From: Quercus robur
Lineage: Eukaryota; Streptophyta; Magnoliopsida; Fagales; Fagaceae
Length of the DNA: 64,000 bases
Assembly (NCBI RefSeq): GCF_932294415.1
Contig: NC_065539.1
Span: forward strand, 49,185,501 to 49,249,500
Direction: 5' to 3'
The notes under the pieces are model-generated. The model had not been told where the DNA came from, did no database searches, and saw nothing but the letters and a program-made list of their open reading frames with translations. This document shows positions 29,967 through 56,584 of this stretch, piece after piece (position 1 is the stretch's first letter; the number at the start of each line of letters is the position of its first letter). The translations under genes and the position numbers were made by a program.

Positions 29967-30770
29967 TGTATGGAGCCCACAGCTCCTTATTTGGATGAGC
30001 CACAGTGATATCAGCCAGTGCCTAATCCTTAAAAAAGGCATGGGTTTCATTTTCACAGAATATCACTCTCAGTATTTTTTATTGGTTAACAGGTGCCTTT
30101 AAGTTAATTGTTAATAACTAAATTAGAAAAGTTTTAATACTATTTTCATAAAAAATATAAAAATGTTAGAAAAATTAATTGTTTTGTTAATTTCTAATAA
30201 AATATTTCTAAAAATAGTTCCTAAATTAATACTCTTAGAACATTTGTTAACATTTTTCTTCTTTTATTTATGTATTTTCTTTTAGGTCTTGCTTGATGAG
30301 TCTAAGGGCATTTGTTAACCTTTCTCTTCTTTTATTTGAGTGTGTTTTTTTAGAGGTCTTGCCTCATGAGTCTTAGGCCTATCAATTGTATGGAGCCCAC
30401 AGCTCCTTATTTGGATGAACCACAGTGATATCAGCCAGTGCCCCATCCTTAAAAAGGCAAGGGTTTCATTTTCACAGAATATCACTCTCAATCCTTTTAT
30501 CAGTTAATATGTGCCTTTAGGCCAATTGTTAATAACCAAATTAGAAAAGTTTTAATACCATTTTCACAAAAAATATAAAAAGCTGTTAGAAAAATTAATT
30601 GTTTTGTCAATTTCCAATAAAATATTTCTAAAATAGTTTTTAAATCAATACTCTTAGTATATTTGTTAACATTTTTCTTCTTTTATTTGTGTGTGTGCGT
30701 GTTTTTTTTTTTTTTTGTTTTTTGAGGTCTTGCCTGATGAGTCTTAGTCCTATCCATTGACTTCCTCTAA
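29967..30770. repeat. 420-bp tandem duplication
   Basis: The block starting TGTATGGAGCCCACAGCTCC at 29967 starts again at 30387 and stays alignable for about 380 bp with scattered substitutions and small indels (by eye close to 90% identity). Within copy 1, a 65-bp segment (CATTTGTTAACATTTTTCTT through the GGTCTTGC...GATGAGTC motif) is itself repeated at about 30241 and 30308. The duplication is non-coding. Confidence 0.8.
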
Positions 30771-40658: not shown

Positions 40659-40663
40659 ATGAT
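40659..40663. repeat. Left target-site duplication of the LTR element (ATGAT)
   Basis: The same five bases follow the right LTR at 51538-51542. A 5-bp duplication is typical of Ty3/Gypsy integration. Confidence 0.9.
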
Positions 40664-40794
40664 TGTGGTGGGTAAAGTCTGTCAGTGGATGTTGGGCCGT
40701 AGCTCATGTATCAAGCCCAGCCACGATAAAGAAGAAAAGGCATGGGCGTAGGATATCCCGTCCCAATCATGATGGGCTGGGCCTGCTAAGGGGC

Positions 40795-40820
40795 GTCCGA
40801 GGAGGAACACCTCCTCGGAC
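40795..40820. promoter_or_regulatory. Perfect hairpin in the LTR U3 region
   Basis: The arm GTCCGAGGAGG pairs with CCTCCTCGGAC across a four-base loop, AACA. An identical copy lies in the 3' LTR. The right arm's CTCCTCGGAC also recurs in the 81-bp array. Confidence 0.8.
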
Positions 40821-41105
40821 TCACCAAGTAAGTGTCCAATTTGCACCCCATACTTGGCGAAAGTTCACCCAATACGAAGAAACAGTGCGTGACACTCAGG
40901 AAGGGGGGGGGGGGACAATCACAACTGCCGCATTAAATGCCAAGGAACTACTTTTCCAGCCGCATTAATGTGGAAGGGACAGGAACGCAGAATGATCTTG
41001 GCCAGTGCAACTCACAGAAAGGAGGGAGGATGACCTATGGGACAGGCACTCGAGTGGAGGATCGGATGACTGACAAGTGTAGGGACATGATCTCAGGAAG
41101 GATGC

Positions 41106-41112
41106 TATATAA
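41106..41112 (+). promoter_or_regulatory. LTR TATA box
   Basis: TATATAA lies about 440 bp into the 5' LTR, in GC-moderate sequence. It would place the start of the retrotransposon transcript near 41140. The same box occurs in the 3' LTR near 51250. Confidence 0.65.
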
Positions 41113-41396
41113 GGGAAGGAGATCCCCATGGAAAAGGGATCGCAAGCAGAAAGAGGAAAAGGATAAAGAAGGAGAAAAGAGAGAGAAGTAGCATGAACAG
41201 CCTCAGGGACCGTTACTCCAGAAGTTAGAAGGAATATCCCTACGTCCAACTGGTTGCATGGCTTGGTCGTAACTTCGTTTCTCCTGTCAAAGACCTAGTT
41301 CTATAACCTACTCTCTACAAATTCATTGTTGAGGGACTTTTGGGCCAGAATCTCCCACCTGTTGGGCCTGAGCCCCAAAATTCGTCACCCTACAAT

Positions 41397-41414
41397 TGGC
41401 GCCGTCTGTGGGGA
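41397..41414 (+). other. Primer binding site (tRNA-Asp type)
   Basis: Two bases after the LTR, TGGCGCCGTC matches the complement of the 3' end of plant tRNA-Asp. The match weakens after ten bases. Confidence 0.7.
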
Positions 41415-41447
41415 GAACTTGTGTCTCGACAAGTGAAACAGCAAGGG

Positions 41448-43466
41448 ATGGAAGGATCAGGTCCGCGCCAAACCGGACGTACTGAATCTCAACGACAGGA
41501 CAACTTTGTAAACCTTGAGCGAGCAAAAGACCAAAATGATCAACGAGAGGGCAGTGTGAACACCGCTCACACGAGTAGAAGTCGCTCGAAAGGGAAAGAT
41601 CATGCGTCCCATCAGCGCAACGAGCAGAAGGCTCTGCAGCAAGAGATTGAGGATTTGAAGAAAAGGCTGCGGCGAGCCCGACAAAAACGTCCTTTGCCCA
41701 TTTCGGATACTAGCAGTGGTGAGGATGATGAATACAGACGAAGGACGAGGACCCCTCCGAGCGAGACGTTCTCCTATGAGGAAGAGAGGCCTCACAAACA
41801 CGGCCGCAAAAGCCCACCTTACCAAGGCTTAGTCAATGACGCCATGAGCAGGGCCCTGGATCGAATCTCCCAGTCGCCATTTACCCGTAGAATAGAGCGG
41901 GCGGTGCTCCCTCGACGATTTAATCAGCCAACGTTTACCCCGTACAATGGTCGAACTGACCCAGTGGAGCACGTGAGCCAGTTCAACCAAAGGATGGCCG
42001 TCCACTCCAGGGACGAGGCGTTAATGTGTAAAGTGTTTCCCTCCAGCCTGGGGCCCCTGGCCATGAGATGGTTTGATGCCCTCCCACCAAACTCTATAGA
42101 CTCCTTTAAACAGTTGACGCAGGCCTTTGGCTCCCGCTTCATCACCAGCACTAGAGTCCCTCGGCCCCTTGATTCCCTTTTATCTCTGTCCATGCGAGAA
42201 GGAGAAACGCTAAAGGCCTACTCGGACAGATATTGGGAGGTGCACAATGAGGTAGAAGGAAGTCACGATGACGTCGCCATCAGTGCCTTTAAAAGGGGCT
42301 TGCCGACAGAGCATGGCTTAAGAAAGTCTCTTACGGGAAAGCCAGCCACCAGCGTTCGACAACTCATGGACAGGATAGACAAGTATAAAAGGGTCGAAGA
42401 AGACCAGCAAACCGGGAAGGGAAAGGCGAAGTTTGTCCCTCAGGAGAGAAGGGACTCCAGGTCGGACCACTTCAGTAGCAGCAATAGGCCGAGAAGAGAT
42501 TATACGGAACAATCGAGATCCACAGGGGCTCAAGTAGTCCACGCCGTGTTCCGAGAGCCATTACACGAGATCATGGAGAAAATAAAGCATGAATCCTTTT
42601 TCCAATGGCCGAGTAAGATAGCGGGCGACTCCTCGAGACGCAATCAGAACCTATATTGTGCGTATCACCAAGAGCCTGGCCACGTTACTGACGAATGCAG
42701 GAACTTGAAAAACTATTTGGATCGGCTTGTCCGAGAGGGAAAGCTAAGACATCTGTTGCAGCGCCCTGAGCAATCAAATGTCGATACCAGGCAAAGCGCT
42801 TTGAGGCCACCAATAGGCACGATAAATGTCATTCTTGCCGCACCTGGGAGAACCGGTTCCGGCCCGTTCAGAGTAATGTCAGTGGGTAAATCCCCGGCAG
42901 AGGCAGGTGGAAGGGAGTCCAGGAGTGCTAGTGCTAGAGGGAGTGTCCCGCCATTAATTGGGTTCACGGAGGAGGACAAGGAGGGAACTATTCAGCCCCA
43001 TGACGACGCCCTAGTCGTGACGCTCAGAATAGGAGGTTATGACGTGAAGAGGGTGTTAGTTGATCAGGGTAGCGTCGTGGAGGTGATGTACCCAGACTTG
43101 TATAAGGGGCTGAATTTAAAGCAGGAAGACCTGTCTCCATACGATGCTCCCCTGCTTAGTTTTGAGGGAAAAATCGTCATCCCGAAGGGCATGATCAGGT
43201 TGCCTGTGCAGACAGACATAGAAATAGTGGAAGTGGACTTTATCGTAGTGGACGCGTACTCACCCTATACAGCTATTGTGGCACGGCCATGGCTTCATAC
43301 GCTAGGGGCTGTGACGTCTACCCTGCACCAGAAAGTGAAGTATCCGTCGGAGGGCCGAATCAAGGAGATAGTGGGGGATCAAGGAATGGCCAGGCGATGC
43401 ATGGTGTCGGCTATTGCTCGACAATTAAGCAACGTGCCCTTCACTTCAACCGGGAATACCTTATAG
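41448..43466 (+). CDS. gag: Gag with aspartic protease (Tat-lineage retrotransposon)
   Basis: This 672-codon ORF forms the capsid/nucleocapsid and carries the protease. The open frame extends upstream into the LTR, but the first in-frame ATG is 41448, downstream of the primer site. Residues 1-130 are charged and Arg/Glu-rich with a short coiled-coil stretch. The retrotransposon gag domain lies at about 160-300 (TFTPYNGRTDPVEHV, FKQLTQAFGSRF). A zinc-knuckle-like CAYHQEPGHVTDEC is at about 404-417. The protease signature VLVDQGSVVEVMYPDL lies at about 535 and reads Asp-Gln-Gly in place of the usual Asp-Thr/Ser-Gly, a variant I recall from other Tat elements. The ORF ends in UAG, in the same frame as pol. 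Confidence 0.93.
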   Translation: MEGSGPRQTGRTESQRQDNFVNLERAKDQNDQREGSVNTAHTSRSRSKGKDHASHQRNEQKALQQEIEDLKKRLRRARQKRPLPISDTSSGEDDEYRRRTRTPPSETFSYEEERPHKHGRKSPPYQGLVNDAMSRALDRISQSPFTRRIERAVLPRRFNQPTFTPYNGRTDPVEHVSQFNQRMAVHSRDEALMCKVFPSSLGPLAMRWFDALPPNSIDSFKQLTQAFGSRFITSTRVPRPLDSLLSLSMREGETLKAYSDRYWEVHNEVEGSHDDVAISAFKRGLPTEHGLRKSLTGKPATSVRQLMDRIDKYKRVEEDQQTGKGKAKFVPQERRDSRSDHFSSSNRPRRDYTEQSRSTGAQVVHAVFREPLHEIMEKIKHESFFQWPSKIAGDSSRRNQNLYCAYHQEPGHVTDECRNLKNYLDRLVREGKLRHLLQRPEQSNVDTRQSALRPPIGTINVILAAPGRTGSGPFRVMSVGKSPAEAGGRESRSASARGSVPPLIGFTEEDKEGTIQPHDDALVVTLRIGGYDVKRVLVDQGSVVEVMYPDLYKGLNLKQEDLSPYDAPLLSFEGKIVIPKGMIRLPVQTDIEIVEVDFIVVDAYSPYTAIVARPWLHTLGAVTSTLHQKVKYPSEGRIKEIVGDQGMARRCMVSAIARQLSNVPFTSTGNTL

Positions 43467-43511: not shown

Positions 43512-46500
43512 ATGGAAGTGAGCTGCGAAGAGCTGGAGAAAGTTTTCGTCGGATCAGATCCCGAGAGATTTTTCCAGATAGGCTCGGAGCTACCAGCACC
43601 GGAGAAGTCGGCAATGATTAATTTCCTGCGCCGAAATGAGGACGTATTCGCTTGGGATCCTTATGAAGCACCTGGGGTTGACTCAGACCTAATACGCCAT
43701 CACCTTAACGTTAATCCGGCCATTACCCCAAGGAAGCAGCCCCCTCGGCGCCCTTCAAGGGAGCATGCAGACGCTGTGAGGGAGGAAGTAGCAAAATTGA
43801 AAAGAGCTGAGGCTATCAAGGAAGTGTTCTACCCCGAATGGTTGGCGAACACAGTCGTGGTGAAGAAGAAGAGCGGAAAATGGCGAGTCTGTGTGGACTT
43901 CACGAACTTAAACAAGGCTTGCCCAAAGGATCCTTTCCCAATGCCGCGGATAGACCGACTGGTTGACGCAACTGTCGGGCATCCCCGAATGAGTTTCTTG
44001 GACGCTTTCCAGGGCTACCATCAGATATCCTTGGCCGCGGAAGACCAGGAAAAAACTGCCTTCGTCACCCCAACTGGTAATTACCATTACAAGGTGATGC
44101 CTTTTGGCCTGAAGAATGCCGGTTCGACCTATCAAAGGATGATGACCAGGATGTTTGAACAGCAGATGGGAAAAATTGTCGAGGTGTATATAGACGATAT
44201 GGTAGTGAAGAGTAAACTGGTGACCGAGCACATCAGGGACCTTGACGAAGTGTTTCACATTCTGAGAAGGTACAAGTTGCGACTGAACGCCTCCAAGTGC
44301 TCATTTGGAGTGGGATCGGGGAAATTCCTTGGCTACATGGTAACCCATCGGGGGATTGAGGTTAACCCCGACCAGATAAGGGCCATTCATAGTATGCAGC
44401 CTCCTCGGAATCCCAAAGAAGTCCAGAAGCTTACCGGCATGATAGCAGCTTTGAACCGTTTCATCTCCCGCTCGGCGGACAGATGCAGACCTTTTTTCCT
44501 CCTGCTACACAAGTGGAAGGGTTTCGAGTGGACGGGCGAGTGTGATGTAGCATTCCAACAGCTCAAAGAGTACCTCGCCCGACCCCCGATCATGTCCAGT
44601 CCCGAGGCCGACGAGGTGCTCTATGCATACATCGCAGTCGCCGATCATGCGGTTAGCCTAGTACTGATCCGAGAGGACAACGGCACACAACGGCCCGTGT
44701 ATTATGTAAGCAAGTCGCTACAGGAGGCAGAGACCCGGTACCTCCCCCTCGAAAAGGCAATATTGGCTGTCGTGCATGCTACAAAGAAGCTTCCGCACTA
44801 TTTTCAGGCGCATACAGTTGTTGTGCTAACCCAACTGCCATTGAAATCAGTGCTCCGTAGCGCCGACTACACTGGGAGAATAGCTAAATGGGGAACCATC
44901 TTGAGCGCCTTTGACATCAGATATATGCCACGCACCGCCGTAAAAGGTCAAGTCCTTGCCGACCTGGTAGCTGAATTTGCAGAGCCAACTTTGGAAGGGG
45001 TGGAAGTGCAGGGGTCACCGAACGACGATAGGAGATTGGTCAGTGCAATTTCTGTGCAAGAACACGATAAGTGGAAAGTATATATTGATGGTGCAGCAAA
45101 CCAAAAGGGTTCCGGAGTGGGGCTCGTTCTAATCTCGCCCGAAGGTATAACCTTGGAGAAGTCGTTGAGACTGGGATTCCCAGCAACGAATAATGAAGCT
45201 GAGTATGAGGCACTGCTGGAGGGGATGTCCATGATCCAAAAGCTGGATGGAAAATACGCGAGCATATTCTCGGATTCGAGACTCATAGTGGGGCAAGTAA
45301 ACGGGGAATTGGAGGCGAAAGATGAGAGAATGCAACGGTATCTGGCCCGAGCTAAACGCCTACGTGCCCACTTCGACGACCTCAGTTTAACGCATATACC
45401 CAGAAGTGGGAATACCCACGCCGATTCGCTGGCAACACTGGCCACATCCTCGGCTCAGCCCCTTCCGAGGGTTATTCTGGTCGAGGACCTCTGCCGCCCC
45501 ACGAAAGAGGAGGCTAACGGAATTCGGGTACACAACGTCGGTGAAGGGCCAAGCTGGATGGACCCTCTTGTCCAATTCTTGAAGAACGATTCCTTGCCGG
45601 ACGACAAAGTCGAGGCCGACAAAATCCGGAAGAGAGCTCCTCGATTCTGGTTGTCCGAGGACTCAAAGCTCTACAGGCGTTCATTCTCGGGGCCATACTT
45701 GCTGTGCGTGCACCCAGCTGCTACCGAACTCATTCTGGAGGAGTTGCACGAGGGGATTTGTGGAAGCCATACGGGGGGCCGGTCCCTCTCCCACAGGGCT
45801 ATGACGCTGGGTTACTGGTGGCCGAGCATGCATAAGGAAGCTCTGGAATATGTGAAGAAGTGTGACCAATGCCAACGGTTCGCTCCGAATATACATCAGC
45901 CGGGTGGAGTACTTAACCCATTGTCCAGCCCTTGGCCATTTGCACAATGGGGCCTAGACATATTGGGCCCGTTCCCCAAAGCTGCCGGGAACAAGAAGTT
46001 TCTTCTCGTCGGCACCGATTACTTTACGAAATGGGTTGAGGCTGAGGCGCTGGCAAACATTAGAGATGTGGATGTCATGAAGTTTATCTGGAAAAACATT
46101 GTCACCCGATTCGGCACCCCACACACCTTAATCTCGGACAATGGCCTGCAATTTGATAGCAAGGCCTTTAGGGAATACTGCAGTGAATTGGGGATTGTCA
46201 ACAGGTACTCTACTCCAGCCTATCCGCAGAGTAACGGGCAAGCCGAGGCAGTTAACAAAACCATAGTGAATGGGCTGAAGAGGAGGTTGGACGACGCGAA
46301 AGGGAGGTGGGTTGAAGAACTCGCCCATGTTTTGTGGACGTATCGCACCACGCCCCGCCGATCCACGGGAGAAACCCCCTTTTCGTTGACCTACGGGGCC
46401 GAGGCCGTCATCTCGTTAGAGATAAACTTTCCCTCCCAGAGGACTGCTACATTCGACCCTATTGTTAACAATGGGCTTCTAGAGAAAAGCTTGGACCTCC

Positions 46501-46793
46501 TCGAAGAAAGAAGGGATTGCGCGATGGTGCATCTAGTTCAGTATCAACAAAAGCTCAAGCGGGGCTATGACGCCAAGGTGAAGTCGAGACCCTTGACGCC
46601 TGGGGACCTAGTGCTGAGGAAAGTCCTGGGCAATGCGAGGAATCCTGCATGGGGAAAACTCGGGCCAAACTGGGAGGGTCCATACCGCATCACCTCTGTG
46701 GCTGGCATCGGAGCGTACTATTTGGAAGACTTGGATGAACGTGTAGTGCCACGTCCGTGGAATGTAAATAACCTGAAAAGGTACTTTTATTAA
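43512..46793 (+). CDS. pol: Pol: reverse transcriptase, two RNase H domains, integrase
   Basis: The ORF has 1093 codons from the ATG at 43512, though in-frame continuity suggests translation may enter from gag. RT lies at about residues 80-270, with PEWLANTVVVKKK, KWRVCVDFTNLNKACPKDPF, MPFGLKNAGSTYQ and the catalytic YIDDM at about 226-230. The first RNase H (about 330-470) has lost catalytic acidic residues: VLTQLPL stands where TDxxPL is usual. A second, archaeal-type RNase H (about 520-650) starts KVYIDGAANQKGSGVG and keeps NNEAEYEALLEG and FSDSRLIV. Integrase has an HHCC zinc finger (about 733-790, ending CDQCQRF) and a core with D in GLDILGPFP (about 815), D in ISDNGLQFD (about 876) and E in NGQAEAVNKT (about 911). 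No stops or frameshifts are seen, so the protein appears functional. Confidence 0.96.
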   Translation: MEVSCEELEKVFVGSDPERFFQIGSELPAPEKSAMINFLRRNEDVFAWDPYEAPGVDSDLIRHHLNVNPAITPRKQPPRRPSREHADAVREEVAKLKRAEAIKEVFYPEWLANTVVVKKKSGKWRVCVDFTNLNKACPKDPFPMPRIDRLVDATVGHPRMSFLDAFQGYHQISLAAEDQEKTAFVTPTGNYHYKVMPFGLKNAGSTYQRMMTRMFEQQMGKIVEVYIDDMVVKSKLVTEHIRDLDEVFHILRRYKLRLNASKCSFGVGSGKFLGYMVTHRGIEVNPDQIRAIHSMQPPRNPKEVQKLTGMIAALNRFISRSADRCRPFFLLLHKWKGFEWTGECDVAFQQLKEYLARPPIMSSPEADEVLYAYIAVADHAVSLVLIREDNGTQRPVYYVSKSLQEAETRYLPLEKAILAVVHATKKLPHYFQAHTVVVLTQLPLKSVLRSADYTGRIAKWGTILSAFDIRYMPRTAVKGQVLADLVAEFAEPTLEGVEVQGSPNDDRRLVSAISVQEHDKWKVYIDGAANQKGSGVGLVLISPEGITLEKSLRLGFPATNNEAEYEALLEGMSMIQKLDGKYASIFSDSRLIVGQVNGELEAKDERMQRYLARAKRLRAHFDDLSLTHIPRSGNTHADSLATLATSSAQPLPRVILVEDLCRPTKEEANGIRVHNVGEGPSWMDPLVQFLKNDSLPDDKVEADKIRKRAPRFWLSEDSKLYRRSFSGPYLLCVHPAATELILEELHEGICGSHTGGRSLSHRAMTLGYWWPSMHKEALEYVKKCDQCQRFAPNIHQPGGVLNPLSSPWPFAQWGLDILGPFPKAAGNKKFLLVGTDYFTKWVEAEALANIRDVDVMKFIWKNIVTRFGTPHTLISDNGLQFDSKAFREYCSELGIVNRYSTPAYPQSNGQAEAVNKTIVNGLKRRLDDAKGRWVEELAHVLWTYRTTPRRSTGETPFSLTYGAEAVISLEINFPSQRTATFDPIVNNGLLEKSLDLLEERRDCAMVHLVQYQQKLKRGYDAKVKSRPLTPGDLVLRKVLGNARNPAWGKLGPNWEGPYRITSVAGIGAYYLEDLDERVVPRPWNVNNLKRYFY

Positions 46794-46827
46794 TAAAGAA
46801 TATTTTACTTGATGTCGCTCTATTGTG

Positions 46828-47515
46828 CAATTTTCAACAAGCGTTAAACAGAACCCAAGTCCTGCATGGCTCCTTGGACCACAGACTTGGGGGAAATTAA
46901 CCACGCAGCAATTTTCAACAAGCGTTAAACAGAACCCAAGTCCTGCATGGCTCCTCGGACCACAGACTTGGGGGAAATTAACCACGCAGCAATTTTCAAC
47001 AAGCGTTAAACAGAACCCAAGTCCTGCACGCAGCAATTTTCAACAAGCGTTAAACAGAACCCAAGTCCTGCATGGCTCCTCGGACCACAGACTTGGGGGA
47101 AATTAACCACGCAGCAATTTTCAACAAGCGTTAAACAGAACCCAAGTCCTGCATGGCTCCTCGGACCACAGACTTGGGGGAAATTAACCACGCAGCAATT
47201 TTCAACAAGCGTTAAACAGAACCCAAGTCCTGCATGGCTCCTCGGACCACAGACTTGGGGGAAATTAACCACGCAGCAATTTTCAGTAGGTGTTAAACGG
47301 AACCCAAGTCCTGCATGGCTCCTCGGACCACAGACTTGGGGGAAATTAACCACGCAGCAATTTTCAACAAGCGTTAAACAGAGCCCAAGTCCTGCATGGC
47401 TCCTCGGACCACAGACTTGGGGGAAATTAACCACGCAGCAATTTTCAGTAGGTGTTAAACGGAACCCAAGTCCTGCATGGCTCCTCGGACCACAGACTTG
47501 GGGGAAATTAACCGC
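46828..47515. repeat. 81-bp tandem array (nine copies) downstream of pol
   Basis: Copy starts are 46828, 46909, 46990 (a 44-bp truncated copy), 47034, 47115, 47196, 47277, 47358 and 47439. The unit starts CAATTTTCAACAAGCGTTAA and includes CTCCTCGGACCACAGACTTG. Copies 7 and 9 share a variant (CAGTAGGTGTTAAACGG), so the pair 7-8/9 hints at a two-unit amplification. A strongly diverged relative continues to about 47630 (GCGTTAAAGGGAGCCCAAC). Because 81 is a multiple of 3, long frames stay open through the array; these are probably not genes. Tat-lineage elements are known to carry variable tandem repeats here. Confidence 0.95.
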
Positions 47516-47870
47516 ACAATTCTTTCATCAAGGGATAACCTTTCACGATTCGCGAAAAGCGTTAAAGGGAGCCCAACTCCTACGCGGATTCTTAGCCATG
47601 AATTTGGGAAAAATCAGCATTGTACTCGTTGTTGCTCAACTACAAAGTGTCGCAATTCTAACATCTTCATTCACTATTCTTTGACTTTAAGCAGTAAAAG
47701 GATAAGATCGGTATTCATTCATGACGAAAACAAAATAAAGCAAAGCAGCGATATATGTAGTTAAATAACTTTTGTCATAAAATGTTCAAAGTAATTCAGT
47801 TCAGAAACATTAGCAAGGATCAAACAAAACAAAGTACAAAAGGGGACAAACGAATTCCTATTCTACGTCC

Positions 47871-50316
47871 CTAAGGGCCCTGAGTTGGGGCAGGCTGATC
47901 ATCCACTGCTGGGTTTTCCGGGGCGATCTCCTGGGCCTGGGCAAGGATCTCGTTGATGCGAAGACTGTCCTCGGGTGATTGACCCTGCGTAGCTTGCTCC
48001 ATGCCTCCAGTCTCGGGAATAGGGGGATCTGCTGGAAGAGGCTCAGTGGAGGCAGCCTCCCCAGGAGTCTCACGTATCTCCGCAGGGTAAAAGATGTTCT
48101 CAGCTTTCCTGAGATCAGAATCTGCGGGGACGGCTGCTTTATCCATGGCCAGTCCCCAGGTCGAGGTGACATAGTCCCTGCAGACAGTGGCGATTTCCTC
48201 GGTCAATCTTTCCTCAGTATCGTGAACCCCACGTTTATACGAAGCCGCCACAGCCTTCTCCGCGACCTCCCTGGACAAGCGGGATTCCTCCTTTGCCCTT
48301 GCAAGCTCAGCCTTAAGCTCCGACACCGCTTGTTGCTCCGCTGACAGTTTTTCCTCAGAGTGTCGGAGCTGCTTGCGCAGCTCTTCGGTTTGCTTTTCAG
48401 CAGTCTTCAGGCCAGCCTCTGCACTCGCATTAGCCTTCTTTATTTCTTTCAGCTCATGATCCTTACGATCAAGATCTCGTTTGAGATCGCCCGCGGCCCT
48501 CTCAGCTGTAGCACGGGACTGAGCCTCCTTATGCGCATCCTCTCGAGCCTGCTTGGCCCACTCCTCAGCAACATAAATCTGTTGGGTGACCTGCACTCAA
48601 ACGGAAATAAAGACGATACCAAGATAAGACGATGAGAGGGTCCTCAACACGAAGATAAGATAGAAGATTCCACTTACCACGGCCATGTCCCTCTTCAGTG
48701 ACATGAAAAGCTCTGGTTGACGAATCTTCCTGAGGCCTTCCATATCGCGGGGCAAGAGTAGAGGCTGCTGCAACGCTTCAGCCATGAACGAAGCTTGCTC
48801 GCGCTGGGTCTCCCATAGGGTCGCATCCCAGAGGATTGGAGCGCCATCTAGCTCGATCCGAGGAGACCATGTTCGTGGTCCCCTCTGAGTGACCGCCTCA
48901 TCTCGGCTCTCAGTGGACCTGGTTCTGTTTTCTCGGGGCTCTTTTGTCTCTTTGCCTTTCTTTTTAGGCCCGGCCTTCTCGCGAGCAACCTCTCCCTCCT
49001 CTGCCTCTTCTACAGGCCTTTTTCGCTTTAGATTAGGTATAGGCTTCAGCGCCGCGCCCGACGAGGGAGGGGGAGGAAGAGCGGGGGCTTTGGAGACGAC
49101 CTGTCCTTTCGAGATCTCCTTAGAGGTCTGCCCTTTGGACCTGTTGGATAAAAGACCCCTGAGGCCAGTCCTCGGCTGGAGGTCCATTCCTTCTTCTTCC
49201 TCTGTGTCCTCGCTAAGATCAGGCTGTGCGATGACCAAACCAGTACCAGGAGCCGCTGAGGCACGGTCCAAATCAGCGTCAGAGTCGGAGATCTCTACTA
49301 CTCTAACCGAAGCCTCCCCTTCCTCAGTAAATTGGAACCGGTCTATCTGATCCTCTAAGGATGAATGCGAAGAGCCGGACTCCACCTCTGGGATAACTAC
49401 TGGGGGAAAAACGCGTTGGGGAGGTAACTGAATTGGAGGCAAGTCTGTATCAGCGAGGAACCCTGGTATGGACACGTCAATCCGTGCTAATCTCGGACTA
49501 CCGGCCCTTATAGCTTGTCCGGCTTCTACCTGGGCTCGAGTGAGCGGAGTATAATCCAAAATTAAAGGAGCCGACCGTAGTTGTCCGTCCCCGCTAACAA
49601 AAATCTCGGACCTCAGGAGGTAATTTAGAGCCGGGACATTGACTAGGCTCAGCCGAGGAGTGGTTAGCTTCTTGTCTGCAAAGGCCGTCAAACGATTTAT
49701 GTTAGTCCGAGGAGACATGCAATCAAACCAACAAATCTAAAGCAAGTAAAAGAAAAAGGGGTGGAGGAGCTTGAAACCAAAATCCTCCCCACGGCATCTA
49801 ATTCTACGACACCCCACCTGGCTTTCCCTCCCTAGTCGGACAGTGAGGGCCGTCAGACCATGGCCCGGAAACGATCAAATGGTCGTCCTTCAAGCCTTTG
49901 CTAGACTTCGAAAGGCAAGATATCAACCTCACTGCGTCAACCCTAGACTTTAGATAGTATGTGTCGCCGAGCTTATGGCATTCGTAAAGATGAACCACGT
50001 CGTGCCATGAGAGGCCGAGGTTCATCTGATCGTTCAGGGTTTCGACACACCCCAGGATCCGGAATACATTAGCGGTACATTGATGGGGGGCCAACCTATG
50101 ACCACGCAGATAGTCCCTAGTTATTTTCCCCATCGGAATAGTCATTCCTCCTTCCACGAAGGCTATCATTGGAATTGCGACTTCTTCTGTTCTCCGTTTC
50201 ATCAAAATGTCCTCCAGATGACAGTACTCTAACCCTACCTCCGGTGGGATACGATACTTCGCCCTGAAGCCCGCCATACCGGCCGGAGAATCTACCAGTT
50301 TCTCAAGCCTACCCAT
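47871..50316 (-). CDS. Spliced antisense ORF of the Tat retrotransposon (738 aa)
   Basis: Three coding exons on the strand opposite gag-pol, 50316-49818, 49675-48678 and 48590-47871, have GT-AG borders and exactly matching phases (499+998+720 nt, 739 codons with TAG). A non-coding exon ends with a strong CCC|GTAAGT donor at 50390, the acceptor is at 50328, and the first ATG after that junction is 50316 (MGRLEKLVDS). Exon 1 encodes a globular part with FRAKYRIPPEVG, IPMIAFVEGGMTIPMGKITR and VDAVRLISCLS, resembling the 'putative gypsy-type transposon' domain of plant hypothetical proteins. Exon 2 is acidic, then basic with a KRKRP-like nuclear signal. Exon 3 is a long Glu/Lys/Ala coiled coil with an acidic tail. 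Its function is unknown. Antisense extra ORFs are established for Tat elements. Confidence 0.85.
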
Positions 50317-50389
50317 CCCCTCTAATCCTAAAAACAACTTGAAGGCAGTATGATTAATGAAGAATAATGGAGAAGAAGCGCGAACTTAC

Positions 50390-50525
50390 GGGTAAGAGGT
50401 TCGAAGGAGTCTTCAAGAGAATGGCAGCGGAAGCAAGAACAGACTGAAGGAATAGGCTCTGAGAAGTTCTGAATATTGGAAAGCTCGTCAAAAATGAGAG
50501 ACGAACGCCCTCAAGACCTATTATA
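50390..50525 (-). promoter_or_regulatory. Candidate antisense promoter and leader exon
   Basis: The minus strand has TATAATA at 50525-50519. The stretch between about 50490 and the donor at 50390 has no ATG, so the first start codon of a transcript beginning here would be the antisense ORF's ATG at 50316 after splicing. This is inferred from sequence only. Confidence 0.4.
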
Positions 50526-50792
50526 CTCGGTAGAAGTCGAACAGACGCGCTCGCGTCTAAGGCATGCGAGACGCTGTCCACCGTAGATCCTACCTCCAAC
50601 CGTTGGATTGAGCGAGTGTAAAACCTCAAAAGCTGCGGTTACTTCCCCCTGAGTCACCAACTGCCCACAGCATTAATGAAGCACGTAAAGGCGTGCCTTC
50701 CCCCCTTCCACGTGTGAAGCAGTGGTTCGCCACGAGCCGTCTAGTGAGTATCAAAATCCCGCCTTTTCTCCTCGGACTCAAAAAAGGCCGGC

Positions 50793-50807
50793 ATTTTGAG
50801 GGGCTAT
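50793..50807 (+). other. Polypurine-tract region for plus-strand priming
   Basis: TTTTGAGGGGCTAT lies directly before the 3' LTR. The GAGGGG run is the likely primer; it is short and interrupted compared with canonical tracts. Confidence 0.5.
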
Positions 50808-51537
50808 TGTGGTGGGTAAAGTCTGTCAGTGGATGTTGGGCCGTAGCTCATGTATCAAGCCCAGCCACGATAAAGAAAAAAAGGCATGGGCGTAGGATAT
50901 CCCGTCCCAATCATGATGGGCTGGGCCTGCTAAGGGGCGTCCGAGGAGGAACACCTCCTCGGACTCACCAAGTAAGTGTCCAATTTGCACCCCATACTTG
51001 GCGAAAGTTCACCCAATACGAAGAAACAGTGCGTGACACTCAGGAAGGGGGGGGGGGACAATCACAACTGCCGCATTAAATGCCAAGGAACTACTTTTCC
51101 AGCCGCATTAATGTGGAAGGGACAGGAACGCAGAATGATCTTGGCCAGTGCAACTCACAGAAAGGAGGGAGGATGACCTATGGGACAGGCACTCGAGTGG
51201 AGGATCGGATGACTGACAAGTGTAGGGACATGATCTCAGGAAGGATGCTATATAAGGGAAGGAGATCCCCATGGAAAAGGGATCGCAAGCAGAAAGAGGA
51301 AAAGGATAAAGAAGGAGAAAAGAGAGAGAAGTAGCATGAACAGCCTCAGGGACCGTTACTCCAGAAGTTAGAAGGAATATCCCTACGTCCAACTGGTTGC
51401 ATGGCTTGGTCGTAACTTCGTTTCTCCTGTCAAAGACCTAGTTCTATAACCTACTCTCTACAAATTCATTGTTGAGGGACTTTTGGGCCAGAATCTCCCA
51501 CCTGTTGGGCCTGAGCCCCAAAATTCGTCACCCTACA
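50808..51537 (+). repeat. 3' LTR
   Basis: This 730-bp LTR is collinear with the 5' LTR, with one substitution and one homopolymer indel. It is followed by the second ATGAT duplication at 51538-51542. Confidence 0.97.
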
Positions 51538-51725
51538 ATGATCATAAATCAAAAAAAACTTTTAAAAAATGACTTTGATTTTAACAAATCCACAAGCAAT
51601 AACAAAAACCCAATTCCTAAAAACTGAAACAGAAGCAAACCCAGAAGCACAAACGAGTAACACTAATACATTCACTAAACAAATATATATTTACATAAAT
51701 TAATACAAGAGAGAGAGAGACAAAG

Positions 51726-55531: not shown

Positions 55532-56584
55532 ATGGCCTTGAGGAGCTCCTCTTCTCTCCCACCTCTACTCTTTGGCCTCCTGTCAATCCTGCTCCTCTAC
55601 CACACCACCACCTCTCTCGCCATCCGCGTGGGCATTGTGATCAAACCCTCTCCCAACCTCCCCGTCTTCCGCGAAGCCCCGGCCTTTCGCAATGGAGACG
55701 AATGTGGTTCCGAAGACCAAAAACATATCCATGTAGCCATGACCCTTGATGCAAATTACATTCGTGGTACCATGGCTGCGGTTCTATCAATATTACAGCA
55801 CTCCACATGCCCTGAAAACCTCTCCTTCTATTTCCTCTCTGCACACTCTGAAGCTAATCTGTTTTCAGCAATTAAATCCACCTTTCCTTACCTAAACTTC
55901 AAGATATATAGGTTTGACTCAAACCTTGTTCATGGGAAAATTTCTAAGTCTATTAGGCATGCTTTGGATCAGCCTCTAAATTATGCAAGAATTTACCTTG
56001 CTGATATTATTCCGTCCAATGTGGGACGGGCTATATATTTAGATTCTGACATTGTTGTGGTGGATGATATTGCAAAGCTATGGGATGTGGACATGGAAGA
56101 TAAAGTTGTGGCTGCACCAGAATATTGCCATGCAAATTTCACACAGTATTTCACTGATGCTTTTTGGTCAGACCAAGAATTTTCAAAGACTTTTCATGGA
56201 AGAAATCCTTGTTATTTCAACACAGGAGTGATGGTGATGGATGTGGATAAATGGAGAAAAGGAGAGTATACACAGAAAGTTGAGGAATGGATGGCTGTAC
56301 AAAAGAACAAGAGGATATATCATTTGGGTTCTTTGCCACCTTTCTTGCTTGTTTTGGCTGGGAATATCAAGGCTGTTGATCATAGATGGAATCAACATGG
56401 GTTAGGTGGTGATAATTTTAAAGGGAAATGTAGGAACCTTCATCCTGGTCCTATTAGTCTCTTACATTGGAGTGGGAAAGGGAAGCCGTGGTTGAGATTA
56501 GATTCTAGGAAGCCATGTAACGTTGATCACCTTTGGAAACCGTATGATCTATACCGTTCATCTAAGCAGTCGTTAGAAGAATGA
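55532..56584 (+). CDS. GATL4: Galacturonosyltransferase-like (GATL) protein, GT8 family
   Basis: This 350-aa intronless ORF has the usual GATL length and structure. These Golgi/ER glycosyltransferases act in pectin or xylan synthesis for the cell wall. Residues 8-30 form a hydrophobic signal peptide or anchor ([12 protein letters not shown]). The GT8 fold follows: [13 protein letters not shown] at about 68-80, the DxD nucleotide-sugar/metal site in [12 protein letters not shown] (Asp171, Asp173), [16 protein letters not shown] at about 227-242, and the C-terminal [10 protein letters not shown] at 311-320, which contributes the His metal ligand and the Lys that binds the sugar nucleotide. The GATL3/GATL4 subclass is assigned from sequence memory and from its syntenic partners PP2C 35 and SAC3B. 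The acceptor specificity of this subclass is not certain. Confidence 0.9.

Follow-up and report, generated by a model that had tools for sequence, protein, structure and literature searches.

A predicted spliced antisense gene under purifying selection in a young Retand-type retrotransposon of Quercus robur

Antisense genes of Retand elements and the element in the window

Within the Ty3/gypsy Tat clade of LTR retrotransposons, the Ogre/Retand group is distinguished by an archaeal-type RNase H domain placed between RNase H and integrase (Neumann 2019, PMC6317226). In a 2025 survey, antisense open reading frames (ORFs) were reported in all Retand clusters and the Transposase_28 domain (PF04195) in 97% (Vicient 2025, PMC11963269), the figure given earlier being 23% of Retand elements (PMC6317226). 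The survey took its ORFs from ORF Finder, most of them 600 bp or longer, and those with Transposase_28, called TRP28, have a predicted DNA-binding surface (PMC11963269). The original prediction for the locus studied here noted that antisense extra ORFs are known from Tat elements. Antisense Transposase_28 ORFs are a published hallmark of Retand (PMC11963269). In the Grande element, the antisense gene23 has its own promoter and encodes a nuclear protein, and attention has been asked for antisense and spliced transcripts (Vicient and Casacuberta 2020, PMC7264820). Both the survey and this review pose the role and the origin of the Retand-lineage antisense ORFs as open questions (PMC11963269; PMC7264820).

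The window, by which we mean the whole 64,000-nucleotide stretch of DNA analysed, contains an LTR retrotransposon (Table 1) whose two LTRs, over about 730 bp, have a single substitution between them and a G run that differs by one base, as befits the very young copy originally described. Both ends of the element are flanked by a 5-bp target-site duplication, ATGAT (40659-40663 and 51538-51542). By residue, the Pfam domains of pol are RT (117-276), RNase H (340-467), RVT_3 (526-643) and integrase (735-905). The RVT_3 domain is presumably the archaeal-type RNase H, and an extra RNase H between RNase H and integrase would place the element in the Ogre/Retand group of the Tat clade. The coordinates of the gag frame are counted from a TTG inside the LTR, so that 41340 is the limit of the frame rather than a fixed start. 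Between pol and the 3′ LTR lies a region of about 4.0 kb (46794 to 50807) which holds the antisense gene; the corresponding region of Retand measures 2.9-6.6 kb (PMC11963269), and a long pol-3′ LTR region with an antisense ORF is thus common to both. The gene spans 50316-47871, between the 81-bp tandem array and the 3′ LTR. It had been placed opposite gag-pol, to which it is indeed antisense, but pol ends at 46793 and the gene lies beyond it.

The 81-bp repeat is 27 codons long, which is probably why minus-strand frames of 142 aa (46608-47434) traverse the array. About 4 kb from the insertion, an intact plus-strand ORF of 350 residues (55532-56584) is found, which we take to resemble a galacturonosyltransferase-like host gene. 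At 30077-30692 there are AT-rich direct repeats, mostly about 420 bp apart and 68-90% alike.

Table 1. Features of the element and of the predicted antisense gene (positions in the window)
Feature	Position	Strand	Basis or remark
5′ LTR (TG...CA)	40664..41394	+	LTR comparison
Likely primer binding site, TGGCGCC	41397..41403	+	read from sequence
gag open frame	41340..43466	+	Retrotrans_gag E 3.2e-11
pol: RT, RNase H, second RNase H-like (RVT_3), integrase	43512..46793	+	ORF list and Pfam
81-bp tandem array	46827..47513	.	between pol and antisense gene
Coding exon 4, predicted coiled coil (helix over exon residues 2-145), tail and stop	47871..48590	-	
Intron 3, GTAAGT...TGCAG, phase 0, 87 nt, one in-frame TGA	48591..48677	-	splice score and copy conservation
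Coding exon 3, acidic/basic linker	48678..49675	-	model and dN/dS
Putative nuclear-signal-type basic clusters KRKR (383-386), KKKGK (404-408)	48951..49028	-	sequence
Intron 2, GTGGGG...GCAG, phase 1, 142 nt	49676..49817	-	model and copy conservation
Coding exon 2, start ATG 50316-50314, Transposase_28-like domain residues 1-166	49818..50327	-	model, Pfam, profile comparison
Match to Transposase_28 profile positions 3-42, below Pfam cut-off	50050..50169	-	Pfam
Intron 1 (leader), GTAAGT...TTTAG, 62 nt	50328..50389	-	model and copy conservation
Leader exon, 5′ end inferred	50390..50490	-	ATG-free before start in 38/40 copies
TATA-like box, presumed antisense promoter	50519..50525	-	core kept in 40/40 diverged copies
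3′ LTR	50808..51537	+	LTR comparison

Gene structure and its conservation among copies

When the minus-strand segments 50327-49818, 49675-48678 and 48590-47871 are joined, the predicted structure is reproduced: the three coding exons fit in frame with intron phases 1 and 0, and the spliced frame opening at ATG 50316 encodes a 738-residue protein followed by a stop. All three introns are GT-AG; two donors are GTAAGT, while the exon 2/exon 3 donor reads CAG/GTGGGG. The three longest minus-strand open frames were matched in 0 of 1000 dinucleotide shuffles, and when codon usage is taken from the element's own gag and pol, each exon scores above zero in the proposed frame alone of the six. We placed the presumed 5′ end of the leader by the position of the TATA-like box. 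ATGs upstream of the start are located at 50565 and 50673, and intron 1 lies wholly within the leader; therefore, in a transcript starting below 50565 the start codon would be the first ATG with intron 1 spliced or not. The earlier argument that splicing makes the ORF start the first ATG is correct in that the spliced leader is free of ATG, but the removal of intron 1 is not required for it.

Conservation was assessed on copies from the window's own genome (a 786-Mb, 42-contig assembly). The search with the exon-2 protein gave 5077 candidates, 150 of which, ranked by exon-2 similarity, were scored: 39 (window copy included) are at least 98% identical and 111 are 87-95% identical. The near set consists of 30 loci of the first class (L009-L038, where L009 is the window copy and was left out of averages) and covers part of exon 4 only; the diverged set consists of 40 of the 111 (L039-L078), hand-picked to spread identity and frame length. 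Five loci whose alignment is lost within or after exon 3 or 4 (L037, L049, L056, L058 and L063) were excluded from the conservation and dN/dS counts, L071 was retained despite a partly missing exon 3, and the open-frame and promoter counts use all 40 diverged loci. Every comparison was made against the window copy, and the copies share history, so that the counts given below are not independent events.

Among 36 diverged copies, intron 1 retains its donor GT in 34 and its acceptor AG in 36; the figures are 35 and 35 for intron 2, its GTGGGG-type donor included, and 36 and 35 for intron 3. Mean identity to the window in the intron interiors is 0.90, 0.83 and 0.79 for introns 1, 2 and 3, respectively. 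Within the introns, several other GT/AG pairs match the true borders in conservation, and the contrast between border and interior is clearest for intron 3. Indels occur in the exons at 0-0.63 per kb per copy, as compared with 6.6-19.5 in introns 1 and 2 (two diverged sets). In the 19 most diverged copies, the values are 0, 0.63 and 0.44 for exons 2, 3 and 4, and 19.5, 7.0 and 0 for introns 1, 2 and 3. In the same copies, 10 of the 12 indels of exon 3 are multiples of three and none of the 6 of exon 4 is; these frame-breaking indels count against the copies that carry them, as expected of decay after insertion.

All 40 diverged copies retain both the start ATG and, about 200 nt upstream of it, the TATA core (50525-50519). 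In 38 of the 40 no ATG precedes the start in the spliced leader, taken from 50495, and 33 of the 40 carry an ATG within the 120 nt at 50800-50681. The spliced frame is open to the normal stop in 9 of 40; this is expected for old insertions, and it shows that most diverged copies make no full protein. In one diverged copy (L050, C1:54831103-54834703), the upstream, promoter-side region is 73% identical to that of the window although exon 2 is 94% identical, the upstream identity of the other L039-L058 loci being 88-93%; a different promoter or a rearrangement is possible in this case.

Splice sites were scored with tables of approximate values. Intron 3 joins the best of 117 donors to the best of 224 acceptors in the region, and its score was reached in 0 of 1000 Markov sequences. 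On the other hand, frame-keeping introns with the score of intron 2 were present in 667 of 1000; the window sequence alone thus did not establish intron 2, whose donor is nevertheless conserved in the copies. The splice sites had been called strong, which is true of the two junctions with GTAAGT donors and overstated at intron 2, where GTGGGG is weak by score. Two other frame-keeping border pairs for this intron, 49928/49593 and 49859/49593, score slightly higher and would shorten exon 2 at its end and exon 3 at its beginning. In a codon-position test, the start of exon 3 displays third-position bias (differences 110, 67, 226), whereas the last 36 codons of exon 2 give 70, 106, 160 and intron 2 read in frame gives 204, 182, 311. 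The test favours the borders of Table 1 in part only, the end of exon 2 being not clearly apart from intron 2. We consider these exact borders to be very probable and the antisense gene model as such to be nearly certain.

Selection on the protein, retention of the introns and related proteins

Against the window copy, the dN/dS of the gene (Nei-Gojobori) has a median of 0.15 in 28 near copies, 0.19 in 17 intermediate copies and 0.18 (range 0.17-0.20) in the 19 diverged ones. The other two same-strand frames have medians of 1.26 and 1.50, and the opposite-strand frames give 1.13, 1.77 and 0.26, the low value arising because the third positions of that frame coincide with those of the gene. By exon, the diverged set yields 0.17, 0.16 and 0.22 for exons 2, 3 and 4, where the value for exon 2 is biased low since copies were picked by exon-2 similarity, a choice in which exons 3 and 4 had no part. 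For three copies pol was compared as well, and its dN/dS is 0.07, 0.04 and 0.045 (pol dS is near saturation for L080 and L081) versus 0.17, 0.18 and 0.19 for the antisense gene. These ratios show the antisense gene to be under purifying selection, weaker than that on pol. The original prediction had set a near-neutral pattern across copies against itself; the 19 most diverged copies depart from neutrality throughout, and their dN/dS of about 0.18, together with the kept splice sites and the few frame-breaking exon indels, argues for the complete spliced, protein-coding antisense gene that had been proposed for this Tat-type element. The gene is antisense, lies downstream of pol and is selected as a protein.

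In two diverged copies, the fourfold sites of pol (L080 and L081) differ from those of the window at 0.44-0.70, and those of the antisense exons of these copies (L070 and L078) at only 0.21-0.41. This gap suggests that the 3′ region has been exchanged between element lineages; L079/L060 display no clear gap between pol and antisense divergence.

A 24-base pattern for the spliced exon 3/exon 4 junction has 0 matches in the genome at up to 3 mismatches, as against 194 matches (90 forward, 104 reverse) for the unspliced exon 3/intron 3 pattern. Of the 70 loci, 59 have exon ends that, once joined, would match the spliced pattern with no more than 3 mismatches (29 of the 30 near loci, and 18 and 12 in the two diverged sets of 20), so that spliced copies would mostly have been seen. 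The introns are thus apparently not being lost via reverse transcription of the antisense mRNA, as expected from the proposal that they persist owing to the genomic RNA being of the opposite strand. Antisense introns would then be a natural strand marker, kept through retrotransposition of the sense RNA, and a spliced genomic copy would betray reverse transcription of the antisense mRNA.

The protein had been described as a globular domain, an acidic/basic linker with a nuclear-type signal and a long coiled coil. Exon 4 has a clear heptad pattern and, modelled alone, forms a helix over residues 2-145 with a pLDDT above 90 for about the first 110; its Pfam matches, to mitotic-checkpoint (E 0.073) and Mis12 (E 1.7) families, are weak. 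Basic clusters are present in the linker. The single-sequence model of exon 2, however, is unusable (mean pLDDT 40), and DNA binding therefore rests on the prediction published for other elements. A heptad register continuous over the exon 3/exon 4 junction was considered and rejected, the exon-3 tail having no clear register of its own.

Exon 2 scores 13.5 bits and a 64-residue piece of it 16.0 bits, below the PF04195 cut-off of 26.2 bits, and PF04195 is absent from the matches listed for the whole 738-residue protein. Only 2 of 24 members of the exon-2 family match Transposase_28 with an E of 1 or less. Matches to a fibronectin model, weak in 21 of 24 members, and to PaiB (E 0.21) were taken as chance. 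Canonical Transposase_28 is abundant in the same genome, where 150 of 4149 candidates were scored and all those listed pass the cut-off. When the exon-2 family (39 rows) was aligned by hhalign with eight passing loci, the shallow alignments gave P 1.6e-4 and a probability of 50 over 107 columns, the reversed control giving P 0.22; on both sides the alignment breaks off only a few residues from the intron site, although on the window side the query itself stops there. Given these shallow alignments and the non-acceptance by Pfam, exon 2 is best called a probable remote relative, not a member. Searches of IMG/VR viral contigs for relatives of exon 2 and pol, of bacterial and archaeal genomes for exon 2, and of plasmids for the antisense region returned nothing useful.

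In a second Retand-like family, represented by these eight loci with canonical Transposase_28 (L001-L008), a coiled-coil-type frame follows the Transposase_28 frame on the same strand in 7 of 8 loci, the exception being L003. As in the window, L002 has a phase 1 intron after the domain and a phase 0 intron before the coiled coil; joining over these two introns hits stops, so that one more linker intron seems to exist. The junction ahead of the coiled coil could be read in L001, L002, L004, L005 and L006, five of the eight loci, while a pattern for it failed in L008, L007 did not fit the chosen acceptor and L003 is absent from this reading. In L002 and L006, the two of the eight that were checked, pol lies on the opposite strand and is 48% identical to the window's pol. 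Taken together, these loci point to a second family with a similar exon order and two comparable introns. In L006, the intron corresponding to intron 3 of the window is open through both exons, which form a 312-residue frame. In the window, intron 3 is a multiple of three with one stop. Isoforms that retain such an intron could gain or lose the coiled coil.

Possible function and comparison with known systems

The gene structure, the selection on the protein and the lack of spliced copies among the genome matches emerge from the comparison of copies; from there we infer transcription, nuclear entry, DNA binding and the direction of the effect, as follows. A promoter just inside the 3′ LTR of the Tat/Retand-type element would produce an antisense mRNA, from which host splicing would remove one leader intron and two coding introns. 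The resulting 738-residue accessory protein would begin with a domain resembling Transposase_28, continue through a linker that bears the nuclear-type basic clusters, and include a predicted coiled-coil helix of about 145 residues. It may enter the nucleus, multimerise and bind element DNA or chromatin in trans, and, once bound, raise or tune the expression or the integration of the element. The sense genomic RNA would be the template of retrotransposition, and the introns would pass unspliced from copy to copy. Taken as a whole, this path from a spliced antisense gene to a nuclear accessory regulator seems to us fairly probable; the identification of the product as a nuclear multimeric regulator, though the likeliest of those considered, is tentative, and we give it a little under an even chance.

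The protein could also be a negative factor, i.e., a nuclear self-limiter which represses the sense promoter or blocks integration and so controls copy number. Nothing in the present data separates activation from repression, and nuclear-type signals and a coiled coil fit either. Indeed, retroviral antisense proteins such as HBZ act on sense transcription. A strong self-limiter, however, should be easily lost from young copies that have been successful, and in-frame stops are found in exon 2 of 0 of 28 near copies and in any covered exon of 5 of 28; such a factor is, in our view, unlikely.

The antisense transcript might instead act as RNA, pairing with the genomic RNA to feed silencing or limit copy number, with the frames being incidental. 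A role of this kind, alone or beside a protein, is considered possible for antisense transcription in the review cited above (PMC7264820). Nevertheless, pairing would conserve neither amino acids nor introns, and the selection on codons, confined on this strand to the coding frame (dN/dS 0.17-0.20, with the other two frames above 1), together with the scarcity of frame-breaking exon indels and the conserved splice sites, opposes an RNA role as sole explanation, making it very improbable.

A reading as a nonsense mutation had to be weighed as well, since exons 3 and 4 lie in one frame interrupted by a single TGA within the 87-nt intron 3. The gene would then be unspliced, exon 2 encoding a small protein and exons 3 and 4 one long ORF broken by the TGA or read through it, which would agree with the lack of indels of the 87-nt stretch in the aligned copies and with the 2025 survey, where such antisense ORFs are given separately (PMC11963269). 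However, none of 2124 exonic windows is as T-rich as this stretch, and none of 710 protein windows is as hydrophobic as its translation; moreover, the stretch is 67-76% identical in 18 of the 19 most diverged copies, below both flanking exons, while its terminal GT and AG persist (36/36 and 35/36). As for intron 2, it contains stops in all three frames, and 21 of its 37 indels are not multiples of three. An unspliced arrangement is therefore scarcely credible. Finally, the recent capture of a host gene by this one element, with which antisense-oriented introns would be compatible if it took place at the DNA level, has a negligible probability, because exon 2 is present, with an identity of at least 87%, in the 150 places scored out of 5077 candidates, and a similar architecture recurs in a second family, both indicating an old, resident gene of the lineage.

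Returning to the spliced antisense gene, we find it rather likely that the Retand antisense ORFs, both those with Transposase_28 and those of Smc, Mis12 or checkpoint coiled-coil type, are exons of one ancient spliced gene. Such a gene would have a phase-1 intron following the Transposase_28 domain and a phase-0 intron preceding the coiled coil, and its product would be a nuclear factor that this plant LTR-retrotransposon lineage carries specifically for action in trans. The presence of introns suggests that the gene was acquired at the DNA level, or inherited from an ancestor that already had introns, and not copied from mRNA. The full-length gene model offers a full-length protein to express and fold and exact junctions to seek in RNA. 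It also suggests that ORF-length surveys have been counting exons, and what was mostly known as separate accessory reading frames now resembles one spliced gene. Conserved introns in Retand antisense genes were not found described in the searchable literature, outside which most subscription papers lie. Genes of this kind have already been published; the conserved intron-exon structure and the likeness in two diverged families appear to be new within the literature searched.

HBZ of HTLV-1 has a zipper and a spliced form. It is an antisense retroviral gene with a nuclear product (PMC11963269), comparable with the window gene by analogy only. The maize Grande gene23, an antisense accessory gene with its own promoter and a nuclear protein (Gomez-Orte 2013, via PMC7264820), can be likened to the window gene by description. 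Introns are also known inside the plant LTR retrotransposons Ogre, EVADE and BARE1 (PMC12786077 among the sources), but there splicing concerns the sense strand and the expression of gag-pol, whereas the introns of the window lie on the antisense strand and offer no splice sites to the genomic RNA. A close likeness is with the TRP28 ORFs of Retand, which are also antisense, lie in the pol-3′ LTR region, have a tandem array in the same region and contain a Transposase_28 domain, to which that of the window is similar; the coiled-coil-type ORFs (with Smc, Mis12 and mitotic checkpoint names) reported on the same strand are comparable with exon 4 (PMC11963269). Unlike the TRP28 ORFs, exon 2 of the window stays below the Pfam cut-off, and whereas the Retand ORFs are given separately in the survey, the main text of which contains the word intron 0 times (PMC11963269), those of the window are exons of one predicted gene.
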